A stretch of DNA of 64,000 nt from assembly GCA_944380285.1 (NCBI GenBank), contig CALWGZ010000002.1, forward strand, positions 124,001 to 188,000, read 5' to 3'. The notes beneath the pieces were generated by a model. It did no database searches and was not told where the DNA came from. It saw nothing but the letters and a program-made list of their open reading frames with translations. This document shows positions 14,658 to 41,934 of the stretch, one piece after another (within the stretch, counting starts at the first letter, position 1; every line of letters begins with the position of its first letter). A program made the translations under genes and the position numbers. The stretch comes from an uncultured Christensenellaceae bacterium (GTDB lineage Bacteria > Bacillota > Clostridia > Christensenellales > UBA3700).

Positions 14658-15329
14658 TTATTTTAAGCCCTTCCGGCTTAGTCTCGAAAAGACGATCTCG
14701 TCCCCGTCCAGCGCCGTGCCGAGCATCCCCTGCGCGAGCGCCTGTTTGACGGCGTCCGATTTCCTTACATTTATTCTATCACATTCTTGAGCAAATTCAA
14801 AGGATTTTTCGAATTTTTTCAACAAATACAGGAAAATATACCTAAAATTTAGCTCAAACAGCCCCGCGACGACGAAATTTTGCCCCAAAAAGGTGTTGAG
14901 GCTGGCAAGATTCTCGATATGGACGACTCCGCACAGGTCGATTTTGAGCTCGTTCGCCCTCTCCGTGACCGCCTTCATCAAGGTTTTTCCCAGCCCTTTT
15001 CCGCGATATGCGCCGTCGACCATCAGTCCGCTCGCCTCATAGCAGGCGTCGACGTCGACCGCGCCGTTCGTACTTTTGCGGATGACGTCGGCAAGTTCTT
15101 TTGCATACTCCTCGTCGAGGTCGATGTTGAACGTGCCGACCAGCTTACCTCGGTCGCGCACGCCGAACGCCTCGCCGCCTTCCATCACCGCTTTGAGCTG
15201 TTCGTCGGTATAGGGATAAAAGAACGTTTTGCGGCGCAACGCCTTCCTGCTTCTTGTCAGGAAGGCGTGCTCCTCTTCGTAATCTCCGCCGGTCAGTTTG
15301 ACGACCTCGAAGTTCACATTCTCTTTCAT
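14658..15329 (-). CDS. GNAT-family N-acetyltransferase
   Basis: A 223-residue protein. The acetyl-CoA binding loop is seen as YRGKGLGKTLM around residues 113-123, preceded by the beta strand ASGLMVDG, the core of the GNAT fold. The acceptor is unknown. Its ATG overlaps the argF stop (ATGA), making it the last gene of the arginine operon. An N-acetylglutamate synthase role is possible from context, but ArgJ already supplies that step, so this stays open. Confidence 0.78.
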   Translation of the reverse strand: MKENVNFEVVKLTGGDYEEEHAFLTRSRKALRRKTFFYPYTDEQLKAVMEGGEAFGVRDRGKLVGTFNIDLDEEYAKELADVIRKSTNGAVDVDACYEASGLMVDGAYRGKGLGKTLMKAVTERANELKIDLCGVVHIENLASLNTFLGQNFVVAGLFELNFRYIFLYLLKKFEKSFEFAQECDRINVRKSDAVKQALAQGMLGTALDGDEIVFSRLSRKGLK

Positions 15330-16231
15330 TGCGCGAGCAATTTGACCAGCACCGCCTTTTGGGCGTGCAGTCTGTTCTCCGCCTCGTCGAAGATCTCGGG
15401 GTGGGACTCGATGACCTCGTCCGAGATCTCCTCTCCCCTGTGCGCCGGCAGGCAGTGCAGCACCATCGCGTCGCCCTTGGCGCACTTCATCAGCTCGCCG
15501 TCCACGCAATAGCCGGCGAACGCCTTGCGGCGGATCTCCGCCTCTTTTTCCTGACCCATCGACGCCCAGACGTCGGTATAGACTACGTCCGCGTCCTCCG
15601 CCGCCTCTTTGGGCGACGCGGTCAGCTTGAATTTGTCGCCGTACTTGGCGGCAAAGTCGAGCACCGTCTTGTCAGGGTGATAGCCGTCGGGGCAGGCGAC
15701 AGACACCTGCATGCCCATCGTCAGGCAGCCGACGATCAGCGAGTTCGCCATGTTGTTGCCGTCGCCGACATAGCAGAATTTGAGCGAGTCGAACGCGCCC
15801 TTTTGTTCGCGTATCGTCATCAGGTCGGCGAGGACTTGGCAGGGATGCGCATAGTCGGTCAAGCCGTTGATGATGGGGATGCTGCCGTATTTGGCGAGGT
15901 CTTCGGGGTCGCTCTGCTTGAAGGTGCGGATCATGATGCCGTCGAGATAGCGCGAAAGCACGCGTGCGGTATCCTTGATCGGCTCGCCTCTGCCGATCTG
16001 CAAGTCGGACGACGAGAGGAAGAGCGCCTCTCCGCCCAGCTGATACATTCCCACTTCAAAGGACACGCGCGTGCGCGTCGACGCCTTTTGGAAGATCATG
16101 CCGAGCGTCTTGCCGGCGAGCACATGGTGGGTGATATTGTGCTGTTTTTCGTATTTGAGTTGGTCGGCGAGGTTGAGGATGGACATGATGTCCTTGCCGT
16201 CAAGGTCCGCCATTTTGAGCAGATGTTTCAT
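15326..16231 (-). CDS. argF: ornithine carbamoyltransferase
   Basis: A 301-residue cytosolic enzyme that joins carbamoyl phosphate to ornithine to give citrulline. The carbamoyl-phosphate loop STRTRVSFE, HPCQVLADL and the ornithine-side HCLPAHRGEE are all intact. Length fits the anabolic enzyme (about 300-310). It lies nine bases after argD and overlaps the GNAT gene by four bases. No carAB genes are in the window, so carbamoyl phosphate must come from elsewhere. Confidence 0.96.
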   Translation of the reverse strand: MKHLLKMADLDGKDIMSILNLADQLKYEKQHNITHHVLAGKTLGMIFQKASTRTRVSFEVGMYQLGGEALFLSSSDLQIGRGEPIKDTARVLSRYLDGIMIRTFKQSDPEDLAKYGSIPIINGLTDYAHPCQVLADLMTIREQKGAFDSLKFCYVGDGNNMANSLIVGCLTMGMQVSVACPDGYHPDKTVLDFAAKYGDKFKLTASPKEAAEDADVVYTDVWASMGQEKEAEIRRKAFAGYCVDGELMKCAKGDAMVLHCLPAHRGEEISDEVIESHPEIFDEAENRLHAQKAVLVKLLAQ

Positions 16232-16240
16232 ATTTTCACC

Positions 16241-17404
16241 TCAGTCTTTGAGTATCGAAGTCAGGATATCCATGCCCTTTTCGAGCGCGGCGTCGTCTAT
16301 CGTCAGCGGGGGCAGCAGCCTCACTCTGTCCTTTGCGGTCAGCACGAGCAGCCCCTTTGCGAGCGCCTGTTTCGCGATGTCCGCCGCCTTTTTGGTCTCG
16401 GGCAAGATGCCGACCATCATCCCGAGTCCGCTCACCGCCTTGACTCCGGGGCATCCGTCAAGCCTTGAGCGGATATATTCTCCCTTGCGTGCCACGTCGG
16501 CGAGCAGTTTGTCGTCCAGCCTGTCGACGACGACGTTCGCACCGGCGCAGACGACGGGGTTGCCGCCGAACGTGCTGCCGTGCATACCGGCGCCGAGCGT
16601 ATTCGCGACCTTTTCACCGGCGAGCACCGCGCCGATCGGCAAGCCGCCCCCGAGGCCCTTCGCGAGCGTGGTGATGTCGGGCAGAATGCCGAAGTGTTGC
16701 GACGCGAGCAGCTTGCCCGTCCTGCCCATGCCCGTCTGCACCTCGTCGGCGACGAACAGCACGTCGCGCGCGCGGCACATCTCGTACGCCTCGGCGACGA
16801 AATTCGCGTCCAGAGCGACGACGCCGCCCTCTCCCTGCACGAACTCGACGACGAGCGCGCACGCGCCTTCAAGCGCGTTTGAGAGCGCGTAGAGGTCGCC
16901 TGCGGGCACATGTTCGAAGCCGCCGGTGAACGGGAAGAACCATTTGTGGTAACCGTCCTGTCCGGTCGCGGACAGAGTGCTTATCGTCCTGCCGTGGAAG
17001 GAGTTGACGAGGGTGACGACCTTGGACCTGCCGTCGCCGTACTTGTCGTATGAGTATTTGCGCGCGAGCTTGATCGCGCCCTCGTTCGCCTCCGCGCCCG
17101 AGTTGCCGAAGAACACCTTGGCGTAGCCGGTGCGCGCGCACAGCTTTTGCGCGAGGAGCGCACACGGTTCGGTATAGTAGAGGTTGGAGGTGTGATTGAG
17201 TTTGTGCGCCTGCGCGGACACCGCGTCCGCCCATTCGTCGTCGCACCACCCGAGGCAATTGACCCCTATGCCCGACGTAAAGTCGACATATTCGTTCCCC
17301 TTTTCGTCGCGGCAGATCGCGCCCTTGCCGCTTTCGATCAGCAGGTCGAAGCGCGCATAGGTGTTCATCACATATTGCCTGTCCGTCGATTTGATGTCTT
17401 TCAT
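16241..17404 (-). CDS. argD: acetylornithine aminotransferase
   Basis: A 387-residue class-III PLP aminotransferase converting N-acetylglutamate semialdehyde to N-acetylornithine. The motifs NSGAEANEGAIKLAR, FHGRT, the PLP-phosphate Asp in VADEVQTG and the Schiff-base Lys in TTLAKGLGGG are present. One base separates it from argB, in keeping with a single compact operon. Confidence 0.95.
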   Translation of the reverse strand: MKDIKSTDRQYVMNTYARFDLLIESGKGAICRDEKGNEYVDFTSGIGVNCLGWCDDEWADAVSAQAHKLNHTSNLYYTEPCALLAQKLCARTGYAKVFFGNSGAEANEGAIKLARKYSYDKYGDGRSKVVTLVNSFHGRTISTLSATGQDGYHKWFFPFTGGFEHVPAGDLYALSNALEGACALVVEFVQGEGGVVALDANFVAEAYEMCRARDVLFVADEVQTGMGRTGKLLASQHFGILPDITTLAKGLGGGLPIGAVLAGEKVANTLGAGMHGSTFGGNPVVCAGANVVVDRLDDKLLADVARKGEYIRSRLDGCPGVKAVSGLGMMVGILPETKKAADIAKQALAKGLLVLTAKDRVRLLPPLTIDDAALEKGMDILTSILKD

Positions 17405-17405
17405 A

Positions 17406-18257
17406 TCACTTGAACAGAGTGCCGACGCCCTCGTTGGTCAGCATCTCGATGAGAATGGAGTGCGGTATGCGCCCGTCGATGATGATGGACTGTTTGACGC
17501 CGCGGCGCACCGCCTCGACGCAGCAGTCGACCTTGGGGATCATGCCGCCGCTTATGATGCCCTTGCGTTTGAGCGAGGGGACGTCCGAGACGTACACTTC
17601 GCCGATCAGGGTATCCTCGTCGTCCTTGTCCATCAACAGCCCGCGAATGTCGGTCATCAGCACGAGGTTTTCAGCGCCCATTGCCGCCGCGATACGCGCC
17701 GCCGCGGTGTCGGCGTTGACGTTGTAGACGTTGCCTTCGCCGTCCGTGCCCACGGTCGCGACGACGGGGATATATCCGCCTGCGAGCGCGTCCTCGATGG
17801 GACCGGCGTCTACGTCGACGACGTCGCCGACAAAGCCCAGATCCACCTCGCCCTTATGCTTTTCGCATTTGAGCATGCCGCCGTCTATCCCGGACAGCCC
17901 GAGCGCCTTGCCTCCGCTTTCGCCAAGCATCATCACGAGGTTTTTGTTGATCTTACCGGCAAGGACCATCTGCACGATCTCGGCGGTCTCGCCGTCGGTA
18001 TAGCGCAGTCCGCCGACGAACTCCGACTTCTTGCCGACGCGTTTGAGCATCTCCGAGATCTCGGGGCCGCCGCCGTGGACGAGCACGACCTTGACGCCGA
18101 TCAGCGACAGCATGACTATGTCGCTCATCACCGCGTGTTTGAGCTCGTCGCCGAGCATCGCGTTGCCGCCGTACTTGATGACGACGACCTTGCCGTTGTA
18201 TTTCCTGATGTTGGGAAGCGCGTCGCTGAGCACGCGCGCCTTGCTTGCGATATCCAT
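17406..18257 (-). CDS. argB: acetylglutamate kinase
   Basis: A 283-residue amino-acid kinase phosphorylating N-acetylglutamate. The glycine-rich GGNAM and LVHGGGPEI loops, the substrate segment FVGGLRYTD and the late nucleotide element TDIRGLL are seen. The N-terminal helix (residues 1-20) resembles that of hexameric, arginine-feedback-inhibited forms, but sensitivity cannot be settled by eye. Spacing to argJ is two bases. Confidence 0.95.
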   Translation of the reverse strand: MDIASKARVLSDALPNIRKYNGKVVVIKYGGNAMLGDELKHAVMSDIVMLSLIGVKVVLVHGGGPEISEMLKRVGKKSEFVGGLRYTDGETAEIVQMVLAGKINKNLVMMLGESGGKALGLSGIDGGMLKCEKHKGEVDLGFVGDVVDVDAGPIEDALAGGYIPVVATVGTDGEGNVYNVNADTAAARIAAAMGAENLVLMTDIRGLLMDKDDEDTLIGEVYVSDVPSLKRKGIISGGMIPKVDCCVEAVRRGVKQSIIIDGRIPHSILIEMLTNEGVGTLFK

Positions 18258-18259
18258 GT

Positions 18260-19474
18260 TTACGTCCTGTAATCTGCGTTTATCTTGACATAGTCATAGG
18301 TGAGGTCGCATCCCCACGCGGTCGCCGACGCACCGCCGTCGCCGCATGTCACGTCGATCGTGACCTCGTCTTCGGACAGCACTTTCTTTGCCTCGTCCTC
18401 CGAAAATTCCACGCCGTTGCCGCCCTCGCAGACGGTGACCGAGCCGGCGCGCGAACACAATTTGACACCCACCTTGGTGATGTCGCAGACGGCGTCGGCA
18501 TAGCCGATCGCGCACAATATGCGTCCCCAATTGGCGTCCGCGGCAAACATCGCTGCTTTGAGCAGCGAACTGCATACGACGCTCTTGGCGATCGCCTTTG
18601 CGGACTTGACGTCCGCGCCGCCTTGCACCTTGCACTCGACCAGCCTCGTCGCGCCCTCGCCGTCCTTTGCGATCGCACGCGACACGCGCGTCATCACCGC
18701 AAGCAGCGCCGTCTTGAACATCTCGTAATCGGCTCCCTTCGCGTCGATGGGCGCATTTTCCGCCGCGCCGTTGGCGACGATCATCGCCATGTCGTTGGTC
18801 GAACTGTCGCCGTCGATACTGACCATGTTGAGAGTGTCGTCGATGACCTCTTTGAGCGCCTCTGCGAGCATCTCGGGCACGATCGCGGCGTCGGAAGTGA
18901 CAAAACAAAGCAGCGTCGCCATATTGGGATGGATCATGCCGCTGCCCTTGGCGATCGCGCCTATGCGGCAGGTCTTGCCGCCAAGTTCGAACTCGCAGGC
19001 GAACTCCTTCTTCACCGTATCTGTGGTCATGATCGCCTCGGCGGCGTCCGAACTGCCGTCCGCTTTGAGCGCTTTGACCAGCGCGGGCATCGCGGCGTCG
19101 ATGGGCTCGATGGGCAGGATCTGCCCGATCACGCCCGTCGAAGCGACGATGACGTCGTTCTCGTCAATGCCCGAATCGCGCATGACGAGGCGGCACATTT
19201 GCTCCGCCTTTTGCACGCCGTCGGCGTTGCAGGTATTGGCGTTGCCGCTGTTGCAGACTATCGCACGCGCGTAACCGTCGGCGATATGCGCCTTGGTGAC
19301 TGCGATAGGCGCGCCCTTGACCTTGTTGCGCGTATAGACGCCGGCAGCCGCCGCGCGGCGGTCGCTGACGATGAGCGCGAGGTCGCGCTTGCTCTTGTTC
19401 TTTCTGATCCCGCAATGCACGCCCGCGGCTTTGAAGCCCTGCGGCGCGCACACGCCTCCCGTGATTTCCTTCAT
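18260..19474 (-). CDS. argJ: bifunctional glutamate N-acetyltransferase / amino-acid acetyltransferase
   Basis: A 404-residue enzyme that moves the acetyl group from N-acetylornithine back to glutamate, closing the cyclic arginine pathway. The self-cleavage site is conserved as KGSGMIHPNMATLL, with the Thr that becomes the nucleophile of the beta chain. The N-terminal GVCAPQGFKAAGVHCG also matches the family. Its presence explains why argA and argE are not needed here. One base separates it from argC. Confidence 0.95.
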   Translation of the reverse strand: MKEITGGVCAPQGFKAAGVHCGIRKNKSKRDLALIVSDRRAAAAGVYTRNKVKGAPIAVTKAHIADGYARAIVCNSGNANTCNADGVQKAEQMCRLVMRDSGIDENDVIVASTGVIGQILPIEPIDAAMPALVKALKADGSSDAAEAIMTTDTVKKEFACEFELGGKTCRIGAIAKGSGMIHPNMATLLCFVTSDAAIVPEMLAEALKEVIDDTLNMVSIDGDSSTNDMAMIVANGAAENAPIDAKGADYEMFKTALLAVMTRVSRAIAKDGEGATRLVECKVQGGADVKSAKAIAKSVVCSSLLKAAMFAADANWGRILCAIGYADAVCDITKVGVKLCSRAGSVTVCEGGNGVEFSEDEAKKVLSEDEVTIDVTCGDGGASATAWGCDLTYDYVKINADYRT

Positions 19475-19475
19475 C

Positions 19476-20507
19476 TCAAAACGCGGGCGGAACGAGTTCC
19501 AATCCGCTCTCCTCCTTGATGCCGAACATCAAATTCATATTCTGTATCGCCTGACCGGCGGCGCCTTTGACCATGTTGTCGATCGCGCTCGTGATCACCG
19601 CCTTGCCGGCGTGAGCGTCGACGAACACGCCTATGTCGCAGAAGTTGGACGCCTTGACGTCGCGAATGTTCGCCGCCCTGCCGAGAGGCAGCACGCGGAC
19701 GAACTTTTCGCCGCGATAGAAGTCGGCATACAGCTTGTGCAGCTCCTCGGCTGTGACGTCCGCCGTAAGATCGAAATACATCGTCGTCTCAATGCCCCTG
19801 TTGACGGGCAGGAGATGCGGCACAAAAGTCACCTTGACCTCGCTCTCCGCCAACGCGGACAGCGTCTGCTCCATCTCGGGCGTATGCCTGTGCGCCGCCG
19901 CCTTGTAGGCGGAAAACGCCTCGTTGCAATTGGGATAGTGCGTTGTGTCCGAAAGCCCTCTGCCCGAGCCTGTCACGCCCGACTTGCTGTCGACGACGAC
20001 CGAGCCGGAGACGAGTTTTGCCCTGAGCAGCGGCGCGGCGCCGAGCGCGACCGAGGTCGGATAGCACCCCGGGTTGCCTATGATCGGCTGCCCGTTGTAG
20101 AGCGCGCGATGCAATTCGGGGATGCAATACAGCGCCTTTGCGTGCAGATCGGGGCGAAGATACGCCTTGCCGTACCACTTGTTGTACTCCTCTTCGCTGT
20201 CCAGACGGAAATCCGCGCCGAGGTCGATCAACTTCTTGCCCGCGGCGACGCACTTGCCGGCGAGGGCCTCGCTCAGTCCGTGCGGCAGAGACGCAAACAC
20301 TACGTCGCTCTTCGCGACGACCGCGTCCTCGTCTTCAAGCAATATGTCGCATACCCCGAAGAGGTTGGGATATACGTCGCTCAACTTTTTGCCTTCGAAG
20401 CTGACCGACGACGCCGCGACGAGCCGCGCCTCGGGATGAGTGCACAGCAACCTCGCGAGTTCCGCTCCGGCATAGCCGGTCGCTCCCACTATTCCTGCTT
20501 TTATCAT
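19476..20507 (-). CDS. argC: N-acetyl-gamma-glutamyl-phosphate reductase
   Basis: A 343-residue NADPH-dependent reductase making N-acetylglutamate semialdehyde. The Rossmann motif GATGYAGAEL is at residues 9-18, the catalytic Cys is in NPGCYPTSV, and the later His lies in VTFVPHLLPVNRG. The ATG overlaps the argH stop (ATGA). Confidence 0.95.
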   Translation of the reverse strand: MIKAGIVGATGYAGAELARLLCTHPEARLVAASSVSFEGKKLSDVYPNLFGVCDILLEDEDAVVAKSDVVFASLPHGLSEALAGKCVAAGKKLIDLGADFRLDSEEEYNKWYGKAYLRPDLHAKALYCIPELHRALYNGQPIIGNPGCYPTSVALGAAPLLRAKLVSGSVVVDSKSGVTGSGRGLSDTTHYPNCNEAFSAYKAAAHRHTPEMEQTLSALAESEVKVTFVPHLLPVNRGIETTMYFDLTADVTAEELHKLYADFYRGEKFVRVLPLGRAANIRDVKASNFCDIGVFVDAHAGKAVITSAIDNMVKGAAGQAIQNMNLMFGIKEESGLELVPPAF

Positions 20508-21894
20508 TGTTCTTCGATCGGTTTCAAAACCGTGTTCTTGATTTGCTCGATATGCTTTTTCACCGCCTGCGGCGCGGGCCCGCCGACGACGTTCCTGCCC
20601 TTGACGCAGGTGATGAGGTCGATCGCCTCATAGACGTCTTTGTCGAACAGTTCGCTCTCTTTGCGGTAGTCATCGAGCGGCAGCGCGTCCAGCGTCACGC
20701 CCCTCTCCACGCACAGCGCGACGAGCCGTCCGACCACGCCGTAGGCGTCGCGGAAGGGCATCCCCTTCTTGACCAGATAGTCGGCGCAATCGGTCGCGTT
20801 GATAAAGCCGCGCTTGCCGGCGGCGAGCATGTTTTCGGGGAGGAACTTCGCCGTCGCCAACATCGGGACGATGATGGAGAGGCATTGTTTGAGCGTGTCG
20901 ACGCTGTCGAACACCGCCTCCTTGTCCTCCTGCATGTCTTTGTTGTACGCGAGCGGCAAACCTTTGAGCATCGTCAAAAGCGTCGTCAGATCGCCGACCG
21001 CGCGCCCCGTCTTGCCGCGGATCAATTCGCAGATGTCGGGGTTCTTCTTTTGCGGCATGATGCTGCTGCCCGTCGCATATGCGTCGTCGAGCTCGACGAA
21101 CTTGAACTCCCAGCTGCACCACAGCACGATCTCTTCGGACAGCCTCGACAGATGAGTCATCGTCAGCGCCGACGCCGCGCAGAATTCCACGCAATAGTCG
21201 CGGTCGGACACCCCGTCCAAGCTGTTCGCGCACGGCGCGTCGAAGCCCAGCATCTTCGCGGTGAAGTCGCGGTCGATCGGGTAGGTCGTCGTCGCGAGCG
21301 CACCGCATCCGAGAGGGCTGAAATTCATCAGCTCGAAGCAATTGAACATGCGCGTCATGTCGCGCTTGAACATCTCGACATACGCCATCATGTGGTGCGC
21401 GAGCGTGATCGGTTGAGCGCGTTGCAGGTGCGTGTACCCGGGCATCACCGTCTCGAGGTTTTTCTCGGCGATCGCGACGAGCGTCTCGATCAACTTGCGC
21501 AGCATGCCGCAGATCTCATCTATGCGCTTGCGCAGATACATGCGCAGATCGACCGCGACCTGATCGTTGCGCGAGCGCGCGGTGTGCAGCTTTTTGCCCG
21601 TCGAACCGAGGCGCTTTGTCAGCTCCTCTTCGACGAACATATGGATGTCTTCCGCCTCGGGATCGATCGTCAGCTTGCCCTCGTCGATGTCGTCGAGTAT
21701 TGCGGCAAGTTCGCTTGCGATCTTCTTTGCGTCATCGGCGGCAATGATCCCCTGCCTGCCCAACATCGAGACGTGCGCGATGCTGCCGGTGATGTCTTCA
21801 CGGTACATCGCGCTGTCGAACGACACCGAACTGTTGAAGTCGTTGACCCTCGAGTCAAGCTCTTTGGAGAACCTGCCCTTCCAGAGTTTTGCCA

Positions 21895-21895
<1 letters not shown>
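20504..21895 (-). CDS. argH: argininosuccinate lyase
   Basis: A 463-residue enzyme of the fumarase/aspartase superfamily that releases fumarate and arginine. The signature GSSIMPQKKNPD with the catalytic serine loop is intact, as are TARSRNDQ and TGSS. It starts at an ATG that shares one base with the argG stop (TAATG), so the two last steps of arginine synthesis are coupled. Confidence 0.96.
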
Positions 21896-33492: not shown

Positions 33493-36400
33493 TCAAGCGT
33501 CGGCTTTGCTGATCGTGCCGTCGGTGCAGATGACGGTGAAAGTGCCGGTATTACTATCCCAACCGTTACCCTTTTCGATCGCTCGCCATTGAGCCTTTGT
33601 GCCTTGGAAGTTGATCGTAGTCAAACCGCTGCATTTGTAGAATGCATTGTCGCCGATGCTTGTCACGCCGTCGGGGATCTTTATGCTCCTCAAACCACTG
33701 CAGTCGTAGAATGTATAATCACCTATGCTCGTTACGCTGTCCGGGATCGTGACGCTTGTCAAACCGCTACAATTGTAGAACGCATAATCACCTATTCTCG
33801 TTACGCTGTCGGGGATCGTGACGCTTGTCAATCCGCTGCAATAGGAGAATGCTCTATAGCCGATGCTTGTCACGCCGTCCCCGATCATAACGCTTGTCAA
33901 ACCACTGCATCTGTAGAATGCATCATTGCCGATGCTTGTCCCTCCGGTGATGATCACCTCTTTCAATGATTTGGGGACATAATCGTTATTGTATAAATAA
34001 TGCGACGCACCGAAGATATAGCCGAAATGCGTTGCGCCTGTACCATCTGCTTTCTCTCCGACAAACGGGATTGTTATGCTCGTCAAACCGCTGCATCCGT
34101 CGAATGCATAGCTAGCAATGCCTCGAGTTCCATCGCGCAATTCAACGCTTGTTATCGAACTATCGCAATCGATTACCCAACCATCGACATAGCTGACCCC
34201 GTTTTCGATTTCAATAATGCCGCTGCATCCTTCGAATGCGTCACTGCCAATGCTCGTCACGCTGTCAGGGATCGTCACGCTTGTCAAACCGCTGCATCCG
34301 GAAAACACACTGCTTCCGATGCTTGTCACACTGTCCGGGATAGTGACGCTTGTCAAACCGCTACACCCGTAGAATGCATAATCCCCGATGCTTGTCACGC
34401 TGTTCGGAATGACAATGCTTGTCAAACCACTGCATCCGTAGAATGCATAATTGCCGATGCTTGTCACGCTATCTGGGATCGTTATGCTTGTCAAACCGCT
34501 ACAGTCCTCGAACGCACCTCTGCCGATGCTTGTCACGCTGTCCGGAATAGTTATGCTTGTCAACCCGCTACATCCGTCGAACGCATAATTACCTATACTC
34601 GTCACGCCATTCCCTATTGTAACGCTTGTCAAACCGCTGCATCCGTAGAATGCCTGAGTGCCGATGCTTGTCACGCTATCCGGTATCGTGATGCTTGTCA
34701 AACCGCTGCACCAGCGGAATGCCTGAGTGCCGATGCTTGTCACGCTGTCGGGGATCGTGACGCTTGTCAAACCGCTACATCTGTCGAATGCATTGTCGCC
34801 AATGCTTGTCACGCTTCCGTCATTAGGAATGACGCTTGCATTGCCCCCCTTTATCAACGTCTTGCTCTCCGTCTCGATAAGGCAATTGCCGGCGCTGTGA
34901 TAGACAGCATTGCCTTCTTCAACAACTATGCTTGTCAACCCGCCGCATCCGGAGAATGCACTACTGCCGATGCTTGTCACGCTGTCCGGGATCACAATGC
35001 TTGTCAAACCGCTGCAATCATAGAATGCATGAGAGCCGATGCTTGTCACGCTGTCGGGAATCGTAACGCTAGTCAAACCGCCGCATCCATAGAATGCATC
35101 CTCGCCGATGCTTGTCACGCTGTCGGGGATCGTGACGCTTGTCAAACCGCTACATCTGTCGAATGCATTGTCGCCAATGCTTGTCACGCTTCCGTCATTA
35201 GGAATGACGCTTGCATTGCCCCCCTTTATCAACGTCTTGCTCTCCGTCTCGATAAGGCAATTGCCGGCGCTGTGATAGACAGCATTGCCTTCTTCAACAA
35301 CTATGCTTGTCAACCCGCCGCATCCGGAGAATGCATACTCACCGATGCTTGTCACACTATCAGGGATTGTTATACTTGTCAAACCGCTGCATCCGTTGAA
35401 TGCACTCCGGCCGATGCTTGTCACGCTGTCGGGAATCGTTATGCTTGTCAAACCGCTGCATTCGTAGAATGCCCTTTCGCCAATGCTCGTCACGCTGTCG
35501 GGGATTGTTATGCTTGTCAAACCGCTACAATTGCAGAACGCATAATCACCTATGCTCGTTACGCCATCGGGGATTGCCATTTTTGTCAAACCGCTACAAT
35601 TGTAGAACGCATAATCACCTATGCTCGTCACGCTGTCGGGGATCGTTATGCTTGTCAAACCGCTGCAATTGTAGAATGCTCTATAGCCGATGCTTGTCAC
35701 GCTGTCCGGGATCGTTATGCTTGTCAAACCGCTACAATTGTAGAACGCATATTCGCCTATCTTTTCCGTCCCTTCCGGAATAACTATCTCTCCTTGCAAC
35801 AACTCTCCATTGATATAGAGATTGTCGGCGTAGTCCATCGGATTGGCAGAGGAATTGCTAAACTTTATCTCAAGCCATCCCGACAAATCACCTTGATAGT
35901 AGACATCCGTCAAACCGCTGCATCCGTAGAATGCCTCATAGCCGATACTCGTCACGCCACTACCAATTGCAACGCTTGTCAAATTGTTGTTTTTGACAAA
36001 TGTATTGTTCCCCGAGAATGCATATTCGTCAATGTTTGTCACGCTATTCGGAATCGTTATACTTGACAAGCCACTGCAATTGTAAAATGTATACTCATGG
36101 ATGTTTGTTATACTGTCGGATATCGTGATGCTTTTCGCGCCTGTACAATTATAAAATGCATACTCACCTATGTATGTAACACTGTTTGGCATAGTGATAG
36201 CTGTCAAACCTGTACAATTGTAAAACGCATACTCCCCTATGCTGGTAATGCTCTTAGGAATTGTAATACCAGTCAAGCGAGTACAGTTATAGAAAGCGTA
36301 ACCTTCTATCTTTTCCGTCCCTTCCGGAATGACTATATCGCCTTCCATCAGCACGTTATTAATATATAGGTTTTCGACATATGCCATTGGATTGGAAAGG

Positions 36401-38439
36401 TTAGTACCAAAGTCAATCTCCGCCCATCCCGACAAATCACCTTTATAGTATACATCTGTCAATCCTTTGTTTTTAAAGAAAATCCCCTCAAAAGCATCAT
36501 CTCCGATTTTTACAACACTTTCAGGTATTGTTATTTCCTGAAGCATCAGATCGTTAAAACTGGTAGCAGCAAACGCCCCCATCGCTATTTCTTCACATTG
36601 TTCATTGATGGTATACGATGTATAGTCGCTAGCGCCCGGATAACAGATCAACGTCTTGAAATCTTTCGAGTAGAGAACGCCTTTGTCATCGGTAGTATAG
36701 TATGGATTTTCGGGATCTACCGAGAATTCCTCTATCCATACCATTCCGCTAAATGGGTTTTCATCGTAGAAATAAGCATTCTTCCCGATTTCTATATTGT
36801 CAACTCCTCCACTGCTGAACAATTTACCGCAAACTATTCTTACACTGTCGGGTATAACGAAGGTTTCACCATAATCAACAAAAACTGCTGCGCCTACTCC
36901 AGCTGCTATTATCTCAGTTTGAGGATGTACTTCTATATTGGCATTCAAATAACGTCTTCCCACTAGCGCGAAATATGGGTTGTTCTCCGATCCCCAGTAC
37001 CATCCGTTTTTATACCAAGTAAAGTTGTCGGACGAAATGATGACCGATGCTGATGAACCAATAAATTCGACAGTCTCGGGAAGCGGATTAGACTCCACAT
37101 CAATCGGAGCAATGGATTTTATCGTAGAAGGTACATTCATCTTTTTCAGCCCATGAAACGACCAACCTTGTTCAAACGTTATCAACCCCTCATTTAAATT
37201 CAAGAAAGTAATTGATGCTTGCCAAAACGCCCCCTCTTTTATTGTTTTTACCGTATCGGGAACTGCAAACTCATAGACTTCTCTATTCGCAGGATATAAC
37301 CACAATTCGGTTTTATCTTTGTTGTACACTATCCCATCTTCAGACGTAAAGTAAGGATTTTCGTCAACCACAATTATGGTACTTAAATTTGGCATATTTT
37401 TATGCGCTGCTTCGAATCCAACCAAACTTTCGTATCCCAAATTCTTGACAGTTTCGGGAATGATCAAACATACCGCTTCCTCTTCTTCTATAGAATTGAT
37501 GCCTACGACCGGAAGCCCTTTCCATACCGCATGAGGTGCAATCGTTCCATTTATCATGATTGGATCTTGAAACAAATCATATTCCACTATATAACCCGTC
37601 TTAGTTTCGTTTAAACTATAACTTAACCCTTCCGTATACTCATAATCGATCGTATCCACCTCTTGCGATATTGAGTACGAGCAATATATGCATTTCTTAA
37701 CTTTTAAGCCCCGTTCTGTTTTGGTAGGTTCTTTTGTCATTATCCATTCATCGGACAAAACATGCTTACCGGTTTTTTTGATTATCAAATCCTCAACATC
37801 TACAATTTCAGAACCTGCCTCATCTGCAAAAACATCACCGCAACTTTCGCACGTCCAATACTCTTCACAACCGTCTTCTCCGCATGTTGCCTCTTCCTTT
37901 GCAACATATCTCATATCATGCATTAATTTTTCTACTTCGACAGTGGTCAATTTTTCGGTGCATTGTTTATCGGCATAATTATTACCGCAAACATCACAAT
38001 GCCAATGCTCTTTGATACCGGTAGCTGTGCAAGTTGCAGGAATTCCTTGAATATATTCGAGCTCGTGTTCTCCCGCCGGGATTATTTCCGTATTTATATA
38101 TCCACAATTTTTACATTCACGAATACGTTCCCCCCCTGTCGTACATCCCCACTCGCTGTCCGTGACCCACGCACCCCAATCATGCTCGCCGGTCGCGGCG
38201 ATGACGGTGGCGTCAAATGCTATCTCATTCTCGCCTGCGAAATCGGAAAAACACTTGCCGCAATCGGGGCAATACCAATACTCGATATTGCCGTTCGCAA
38301 TGCAAGTCGCATCGACTGCATCGATGCATTGCATTGCGGAATGCCTGCACTCGTCGTCGGTCACGCACGCCGCAAACGCAAGCAGGCTCATAGACGCGAT
38401 CAACACGATCGCAACCATTACGGAAAAACTCTTCTTCAT
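33493..38439 (-). CDS. giant BspA-like leucine-rich-repeat lipoprotein
   Basis: A 1648-residue secreted protein. The signal ends at lipobox FAAC (Cys25). Residues about 30-260 carry five CxxC modules (YCPDCG, CKNCG, HCDVCG, TCESCG, CIYCS), probably zinc-binding or disulfide knuckles. The rest is about thirty 23-residue BspA/LRR_5 repeats with consensus [17 protein letters not shown], found in host- or surface-binding proteins. There is no C-terminal anchor, so the lipid is the tether. The start is the ATG at 38439 with AAGGTG upstream; an earlier TTG is not favoured. Divergent from an XRE regulator. An internal 232-bp segment is duplicated. Confidence 0.88.
34729..34960. repeat. 232-bp direct repeat, copy 1, inside LRR gene
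   Basis: Identical by eye to 35104-35335 (offset 375). It encodes the irregular insert [18 protein letters not shown] plus flanking repeats. Confidence 0.85.
35104..35335. repeat. 232-bp direct repeat, copy 2, inside LRR gene
   Basis: Second copy of the segment at 34729-34960. Other LRR units in this gene differ at silent sites, so this identity suggests a recent duplication of a 375-bp (125-residue) block. Confidence 0.85.
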
Positions 38440-38463
38440 CAATTCACCTTCGGTTTGTGATTT

Positions 38464-40276: not shown

Positions 40277-40282
40277 CGATTC

Positions 40283-40317
40283 AAGCCCTCTCGCGCGAGA
40301 CGAGCGCGAGAGGGCTT
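40283..40317. repeat. long perfect hairpin
   Basis: AAGCCCTCTCGCGC (40283-40296) pairs with GCGCGAGAGGGCTT (40304-40317). It is not followed by a strong T-run on either strand, so it is not a classical terminator. Confidence 0.7.
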
Positions 40318-40480
40318 GTCAAGTTTTGTGAACCGCTTTTTTGAAAATTTTGCGCGACCCCACAAAAAGCGGAAAACGGATATTCGGCTTGTCAAGTTTG
40401 GGTGTCACTTTTTATATCTTTTGCCAAAAAGCCGACGATCGCCGCCTTCGCCTGTCAAGTTTTGAGTACGAATTTTTTGA
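40317..40480. repeat. three degenerate units starting TGTCAAGTTT
   Basis: TGTCAAGTTT occurs at 40317, 40390 and 40453. Units 1 and 3 go on with similar sequence (TTTTTTGAAAA, then ATTTTGC). The first two copies include the odd palindrome CTTGTCAAG. Read on the minus strand each holds TTGACA, but no -10 box follows at 17 bases. Confidence 0.6.
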
Positions 40481-40564
40481 AAAATTTTGCAAAACGTCGT
40501 AACTATACCCGGTTTTTGGCGGTTTTTGAAAATCAATTTTATCATTATACGATATATTTCGCCT

Positions 40565-40627
40565 CCGGCGATGTTACATTCACTTTACATCACCGCCGAA
40601 AAATGTCAAATATACGTTACATCGCCG
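40565..40627. repeat. inverted and direct repeats built on TTACAT
   Basis: CCGGCGATGTTACAT (40565-40579) and TTACATCGCCG (40617-40627) face each other, with another TTACAT at 40585-40590. The group lies 87 bases upstream of the TIR gene -35 box and could be a regulator binding region. The rest of 40233-40803 shows no gene. Confidence 0.5.
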
Positions 40628-40713
40628 ATATTTTCGAAAACTGTTGATTATCTCTCTTGCACCACTCTCCTCTCTCCCGAAAAATGCGCGCCGCGAAAAT
40701 TTTTCGCCTTTTC

Positions 40714-40742
40714 TTGCGGCGCAGCGTGAGGTGTGATATAAT
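40714..40742 (+). promoter_or_regulatory. sigma-A promoter of the TIR-V4R gene
   Basis: TTGCGG (40714-40719), 17-base spacer, perfect TATAAT (40737-40742). A GC-rich hairpin (40750-40781) lies in the short leader just before the ribosome-binding site and could limit translation. Confidence 0.7.
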
Positions 40743-40803
40743 TATACCGCTCGGGGCGCGCCCTCAAACGCCGCGCCCGAGACTTCGACCAAAAGAGGGA
40801 ATT

Positions 40804-41808
40804 ATGGAAAAGTTGGTCTTCGTCAGCCACGCGCGCGAGGCGGACGGCGAAAAAGCGGATCGCATCGTAGAATATCTCGAAAGCCACGGCATCGGCTGTT
40901 TCATCGCGCCGCGCGATATCACAAAAGGCGCGTCGTACGCCCCAAAACTCGTCGCCGGTATAGACGCGGCTACGGTCGTGCTGCTCATCGGCACGCCCGC
41001 GATCGTGGGCAGAGAACATATACTCAACGAGATCGAGATCGCCGTCAACAAGCACAAGACCATCGTCCAATTCGTCATCGAGGACTACACCCCGTCCGAC
41101 GACCTTGTCTACTACATCAGCCGCAAACAAAAACTCATCGCGCCGACGGGCGATTATGAGGCGTTTTTGCCCACGCTCGAACACGAGCTGCGCGTCACGC
41201 TCGGTCTGCCCGAAAAGCCCGACGGAGAAGGCGCAAAAGACTTCTCGGACAAGACAAAATTCAAGGTGTTCCAATACCTTTCCGACCGCGGCATCATGAT
41301 CAACCCCTCCGACCAGCACCGCAACGTCAGCTTCCGCAGCGATACGTTCGTCACGATGTTCGGACAGATCTACGACAGCGTCGCCGGGCTCACCGACCCG
41401 GCAAGCGCGGAAGGCATCTTCTATGACTGCGGCTGCCAAAGCGGCTACAACTTCGGGCGCAGACTGCAAAGCTCTTGGGACGAAAAGAACGAGTACCTCC
41501 TCGCCTCTCCGCAGGAAAAACTCGCCAAGTGGTGCGAGTTCGACTCCAACGTCGGCTGGGGAAAGTTCGATTGCAACATCACCATCGACCCCGAAAACGA
41601 CTCCCTTGAAGGCAAATTGACCGTCAGCGAGTGCTTCCTCGTCGACAAATCGCCCGCCCATCGCCCTGTTTGCGCGTTCATCCGCGGCTATTGCGAGGCG
41701 GTGATCGGCGTGCTCCTCGGCGACGTCGAGGTCAAGCTGACCTGCTCATCCTGCCCCCTCGTCAAAAAATTCAAGAACGTGTGCGAGTTCGACGTCTCGC
41801 TCAAATAG
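40804..41808 (+). CDS. TIR domain fused to V4R (4-vinyl reductase) sensor domain
   Basis: A 334-residue soluble protein. Residues 1-125 are a TIR domain: KLVFVSHA strand with the first loop, CFIAPRDITKGASY (box 2 region), ATVVLLIGTPA, then HILNEIEIAVNKHK, where Glu76 sits at the position of the NADase catalytic Glu, and IVQFVIEDY. Residues about 150-334 match the V4R domain: FYDCGCQSGYNFGRRL, EKLAKWCEF, SECFLVDKS, PVCAFIRGYCEAVIG and the terminal KNVCEFDVSL with its conserved Cys. V4R domains bind small hydrophobic ligands or act as sensors. This suggests an NAD-consuming or signalling output gated by a ligand. GAGGG lies before the ATG, and the earlier in-frame extension covers the promoter. 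No partner gene is coupled to it. Confidence 0.8.
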   Translation: MEKLVFVSHAREADGEKADRIVEYLESHGIGCFIAPRDITKGASYAPKLVAGIDAATVVLLIGTPAIVGREHILNEIEIAVNKHKTIVQFVIEDYTPSDDLVYYISRKQKLIAPTGDYEAFLPTLEHELRVTLGLPEKPDGEGAKDFSDKTKFKVFQYLSDRGIMINPSDQHRNVSFRSDTFVTMFGQIYDSVAGLTDPASAEGIFYDCGCQSGYNFGRRLQSSWDEKNEYLLASPQEKLAKWCEFDSNVGWGKFDCNITIDPENDSLEGKLTVSECFLVDKSPAHRPVCAFIRGYCEAVIGVLLGDVEVKLTCSSCPLVKKFKNVCEFDVSLK

Positions 41809-41934
41809 CGCGGCGGCAGCAAAATATCACCTTGCGGTGTTCGCGTGCGATTTTCATACTTCAAACAGGCGATATGCCGCCAAGTCCGCCGTTTCGCGGC
41901 GCTTTATGCCGACTTTTTACCTCTCCGACCGCGG

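Follow-up and report, generated by a model that had tools for sequence, protein, structure and literature searches.

A 64,000-nucleotide stretch of the genome of an uncultured Christensenellaceae bacterium (hereafter the window) carries on its forward strand a gene (40804..41808, +) for a 334-residue protein in which a TIR and a V4R domain are fused. We interpret this protein, with a probability of roughly 0.55, as a ligand-gated TIR NADase (NAD-cleaving enzyme) of a modular V4R system. The presence of TIR and V4R in one protein had been proposed from the letters of the sequence (the original prediction), and this two-domain reading is supported by sequence profiles, a fold search and residue conservation; the gene itself is defined by its translation and by the full-length relatives L019, L088, L089 and L090. 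The search for the same architecture that had been suggested with the proposal yielded five TIR-V4R fusions. At full length the fusion gene is present as a single copy in the host genome.

Domain make-up of the fusion protein

The N-terminal part of the protein (residues 1-134, 40804..41205, +), which had been taken for a bacterial TIR domain, matches TIR proteins in PDB, and its residues 5-98 match PF13676 (TIR_2) with an E value of 4.6e-13 and 50.2 bits, above the curated cut-off of 28 that is also passed by four relatives. The Glu76 codon lies at 41029..41031 (+). This residue, proposed at the outset to occupy the catalytic position, is unchanged in 15/15 aligned TIRs and in 5/5 TIR-V4R fusions, and in the alignment it falls on the Glu of TIR-STING and of Cat1, within helix aC. 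This is the helix on which TIR enzymes carry their catalytic Glu, E84 in SfSTING (PMC9402430). A Glu at the catalytic position of helix aC, as expected of a TIR NADase, is present in the window protein. The PDB protein nearest in sequence to the window TIR is a TIR-STING, and the fold and structure matches of the window TIR include the NADase TIRs of SARM1, SPARTA and TIR-STING, and the profile matches comprise the NADase TIRs Cat1 and tir-1 as well as adaptor and receptor TIRs. The window TIR shows the SARM1 pattern W-x3-E, with His replacing Trp. Judged from its sequence, the TIR domain is probably an NADase. Within the window's genus, related TIRs (L003, L004, L014 and L018) are joined to different C-terminal parts, which include a ~1245-residue NB-ARC-like protein, an AAA-like protein and a ~360-residue protein whose C-terminal half appears acetyltransferase-like by eye and has no Pfam match.

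V4R is the only Pfam match in the C-terminal half (residues ~150-334, 41251..41805, +; profile match ~177-334), with an E value of 0.017 when the entire protein is scanned and of 0.0063 for the half alone. Single sequences score 13.9-17.0 bits against the PF02830 cut-off of 31. When the profile of ten relatives, among them the window copy, was compared by hhalign with 25 V4R-matching proteins of the same phylum (all but one above the cut-off), the match had a probability of 97.2% and a score of 74.2 over 130 columns, compared with 17.7 for the best of 100 column shuffles and 13.5 for the reversed profile; an earlier hhalign run had used six sequences. Foldseek searches with two AlphaFold2 (AF2) models returned TRAPPC3/Bet3 (6aq3, with palmitate), thorarchaeal TRAPPC3 (Thor-TRAPPC3, 7yh3) and H-NOX, all of them members of the V4R superfamily or proteins with the V4R fold. 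A PDB sequence search with the profile of the V4R half gave nothing meaningful, so the case for V4R rests on hhalign, the fold and the conserved residues. Whole-domain profile similarity, fold and zinc-site residues all place this half in the V4R/TRAPP superfamily, and the prediction of a V4R domain was borne out by hhalign and Foldseek, with the Pfam match itself below threshold.

Four Cys residues of this domain, Cys290 (codon 41671..41673, +) and Cys314, Cys317 and Cys327 (codons within 41743..41784, +), are invariant in 10/10 relatives. They occupy the V4R positions Cys, Glu, Cys, Cys, with Cys314 replacing the Glu seen in V4R proteins such as L042-L050. Zinc ligands of the Cys/Glu/Cys/Cys kind are reported for the V4R zinc site of DmpR (PMC7264223), and in Thor-TRAPPC3 zinc is bound by four Cys (PMC10933270). 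The four invariant Cys are thus predicted to form the zinc site of the V4R fold, with Cys290 as the first ligand. The overall fold and zinc site of the phenol-sensing V4R proteins appear to be retained: DmpR, MopR and PoxR have a V4R fold with a zinc site in which three of the four ligands are Cys, as they are here. The window protein differs from them in that the zinc Glu has become Cys and in that their output is an AAA+ regulator, whereas here it is a TIR or a membrane protein. In sensors of the DmpR type a His and a Trp anchor phenol; the window protein has no Trp at about the DmpR Trp128 spacing before the first zinc Cys (read without a direct DmpR alignment), which makes it premature to assume phenol-type sensing.

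Exchange of effectors and the asparaginase-like partner

Candidatus Borkfalkia avistercoris (Ca. B. avistercoris) encodes a full-length relative with 69-70% identity to the window protein, and the fusions of three further genomes (G1565, G1447 and G1600) are 42-49% identical to it. In these three genomes the fusion is followed by an asparaginase-like gene after gaps of 16, 17 and 12 bp, respectively. Five other genomes (G552, G1192, G1185, G1188 and G1316) have a separate V4R gene of ~235 residues, and the gene order at these loci is membrane-protein gene, V4R and the same asparaginase-like gene. The upstream membrane protein has ~200 residues and one strong N-terminal hydrophobic helix (measured in 4/5). 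In a tree of V4R domains the TIR-fused and the membrane-linked forms make up two fully supported sides, and the effector has therefore been exchanged at least once. The occurrence of both TIR-V4R/asparaginase and membrane/V4R/asparaginase loci points to a modular system with an exchangeable TIR or membrane effector. The original prediction had described a one-gene system. This description holds for the window and Ca. B. avistercoris copies, an asparaginase-like gene being absent from the 64 kb of the window and from 18.5 kb around the Ca. B. avistercoris copy, but not for the 3/5 fusions that are followed by an asparaginase-like gene or for the separate V4R, which belongs to a three-gene operon. 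As a candidate identity for the membrane protein, an SLATT effector was rejected, since the matches were weak (E 0.08-0.34) and one helix is predicted instead of two, and the protein stays unassigned. In G1185 the full operon is located between GAPDH and dnaJ; at the GAPDH site of G777 (L041:1110-3641) only a fragment of the V4R gene is left, next to an intact asparaginase-like gene.

The partner proteins match PF00710 strongly and, like type I L-asparaginase, have the asparaginase fold over nearly their full length when aligned to solved asparaginases, keeping the Thr of the GGT motif and the Thr-Asp motif HGTDT. Unlike type I L-asparaginase, they have a replacement of Lys in 6/6 partners and a change of Gln to Glu (read from alignments), residues that we take to be catalytic and substrate-binding, respectively. 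The Thr and Asp of the Thr-Lys-Asp triad of type I asparaginases are retained, and the NCBIfam asparaginase score of the partner falls well under the curated cut-off. Given the replaced Lys and the change of Gln to Glu, the partner is probably not an ordinary asparaginase.

Proposed mechanism, alternatives and related systems

If the protein is a ligand-gated NADase, its V4R domain, a TRAPP/V4R fold with a structural zinc on four Cys, would bind a small molecule, and binding would alter the oligomeric state of the V4R domain and gather the TIR domains. The gathered TIR would then cleave NAD+ through Glu76, leading to arrest or death of the cell. In the small modular system of Christensenellales gut bacteria to which the protein belongs, the same V4R domain is paired with either a TIR in the same protein or a separately encoded membrane protein of one helix; the usually adjoining asparaginase-fold protein may make, remove or guard the ligand. 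Granted such a gated NADase, we put the odds that phage defence is its purpose at about even. A more far-reaching proposal, which we offer tentatively, is that the loci represent a new prokaryotic immune module composed of a V4R/TRAPP-fold receptor, an exchangeable TIR NADase or membrane effector, and a Lys-less asparaginase-fold protein that makes or removes a new small-molecule signal.

Several points weigh against a gated NADase with a role in defence. TIR domains may also act as scaffolds without enzyme activity. Every single V4R sequence scores under the Pfam cut-off, and the AF2 models, which cover two sequences only, are of low to moderate confidence (predicted local distance difference test scores of 64 and 53). 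No defence genes were recognized around the window copy, and cas9 is found near one relative only, where a 1359-residue Cas9 (L089:10865-14944; REC, PI, HNH and RuvC by Pfam) is encoded ~1.3 kb from the G1447 TIR-V4R/asparaginase operon. In phage, plasmid and viral-contig collections we found no full-length relative of the whole protein; searches of these collections with the C-terminal domain and with the asparaginase-like partner also returned no full-length relative, and one phage record contained a TIR-only match.

The most probable alternative, although we regard it as unlikely, is a metabolic or stress switch in place of defence, in which V4R would sense a host metabolite and the TIR would lower NAD+ or make a cyclic ADP-ribose signal, slowing growth. 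Amino acids, amides, lipids and tetrapyrroles connected with the asparaginase-like partner are candidate ligands of such a switch. The presence of an asparaginase-fold partner in most loci, the housekeeping neighbours of the window gene and the nature of V4R proteins elsewhere, which are metabolic sensors or pigment-pathway proteins, all agree with this explanation, whereas conflict systems typically show a patchy distribution that varies by site, together with effectors that can be exchanged, as seen here, and the partner is without the catalytic Lys of asparaginases. We consider it rather improbable that the TIR is a non-enzymatic assembly domain and the protein a ligand-dependent scaffold. 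Many TIRs are adaptors, adaptor and receptor TIRs are among the profile matches, and the five fusions do not all have the Arg that lies six residues ahead of Glu76; nevertheless, every relative keeps Glu76, and several NADases are among the solved proteins that come closest by fold and profile. Finally, it is highly doubtful that the solo copies of the window and Ca. B. avistercoris are degenerate, non-working remnants that have lost an asparaginase-like partner, for although their surroundings contain no partner gene and degenerate loci such as that of G777 (V4R broken, partner intact) exist, the two genes are 69-70% identical over their full length, and both have kept an open frame and every key residue, suggesting selection.

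The anatomy of the proposed ligand-gated NADase is comparable to that of the ligand-gated effectors TIR-STING/TM-STING (PMC9402430) and PycTIR/PycTM. By analogy, V4R would stand in for STING or a cyclic-nucleotide domain and the asparaginase-like protein, by operon position only, for the signal enzyme. The TIR-STING of CBASS (cyclic-oligonucleotide-based anti-phage signaling system) similarly combines in one protein a TIR with a catalytic Glu and a small-molecule sensor and has a membrane version, TM-STING; in the V4R system, unlike CBASS, the sensor is a V4R/TRAPP fold and the linked enzyme has an asparaginase fold. The C-terminal half matches V4R only, and inspection by eye of the open reading frames (ORFs) in the window and at the relatives' loci revealed no CD-NTase. 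In Pycsar, too, TIR and membrane effectors, PycTIR and PycTM, replace one another within a single signalling scheme (PMC11224242); the membrane protein of the V4R system has one predicted helix. Among the neighbouring ORFs, read by eye, there was no recognizable pyrimidine cyclase or cyclic-nucleotide-binding effector, and the TIR of one relative matches CAP12-PCTIR weakly (E 0.002, below the cut-off). Thoeris ThsB is likewise a TIR in a bacterial immune setting, and there are weak matches to ThsB (E 3.9e-7, PADLOC) and ThcB4 (2.9e-6, NCBIfam). These ThsB-type scores are sub-threshold, with 26 versus 220 bits where a curated cut-off is given; no ThsB model bears a relation to the C-terminal half, and no ThsA was recognized by eye near the window gene.

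V4R domains are known to sense aromatic compounds and to be related to the core of TRAPP, which tethers vesicles in eukaryotes. We found no co-mention of a V4R domain and a TIR domain in 5.39 million open-access papers, subscription papers lying outside the search; the whole words V4R and TIR co-occur there in a single paper, with TIR in another sense, and asparaginase, anti-phage defense and TIR were not found together. The TIR-V4R module is therefore not described in the searched literature, an absence that is not proof of novelty. If the reading is true, V4R joined to a TIR effector would be a new kind of ligand receptor in the TIR immune repertoire, and the asparaginase-fold partner could be the source or the sink of a new signal. 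The fusion is a rare protein of gut bacteria, and the small operon of its relatives resembles a new form of the sense-and-self-destruct switches with which bacteria counter phages. With one to three genes the module is small and directly testable in a laboratory host.

The insert and the upstream region

In the window the fusion gene stands alone, on an insert. In an empty-site comparison with the sister species G007, a stretch of ~1.65 kb (40282..41928) is present in the window and absent in G007, where ~170 bp of unrelated sequence takes its place; homology stops at 40281 and starts again at 41929. The flanking, divergently oriented genes for a major facilitator superfamily transporter and a dehydrogenase (88-89% identical) are 274 bp apart in G007, without the fusion gene. 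A repeat search identified a perfect 15-bp inverted repeat (40282..40318) at the left edge of the insert. Within the host family the V4R domain occurs in 1/46 genomes, that of the host only, and in samples of the class and phylum nothing beyond chance matched the C-terminal half.

The gene had been credited with a consensus promoter of its own. By sequence and spacing there is a promoter at 40714..40742 (+), TTGCGG-17-TATAAT, whose -10 is of the extended type (TGA-TATAAT), but its -35 agrees with the consensus at only 3/6 positions and is for this reason missed by a consensus scan. The 5' leader hairpin noted earlier exists and is ordinary in stability (z -0.31); with this value and no Rfam family at the gathering score, its reading as a regulatory RNA is not supported. 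The upstream repeats noted earlier were confirmed. The window holds three occurrences of TGTCAAGTTT, at 40317, 40390 and 40453, against 0.15 expected, and repeat analysis places (G)GCTTGTCAAGTTT in three copies ahead of the gene (40313..40462). An imperfect 25-bp inverted repeat (40566-40627, 76%) with 12 bp between its arms is possibly a regulator site.

The genes neighbouring the insert are housekeeping genes as read from their translations. Elsewhere in the window are a gene for a 1649-residue BspA-like repeat protein with a lipoprotein-like start (33493-38442) and, by reading of translations, an arginine biosynthesis gene cluster (15326-21895).
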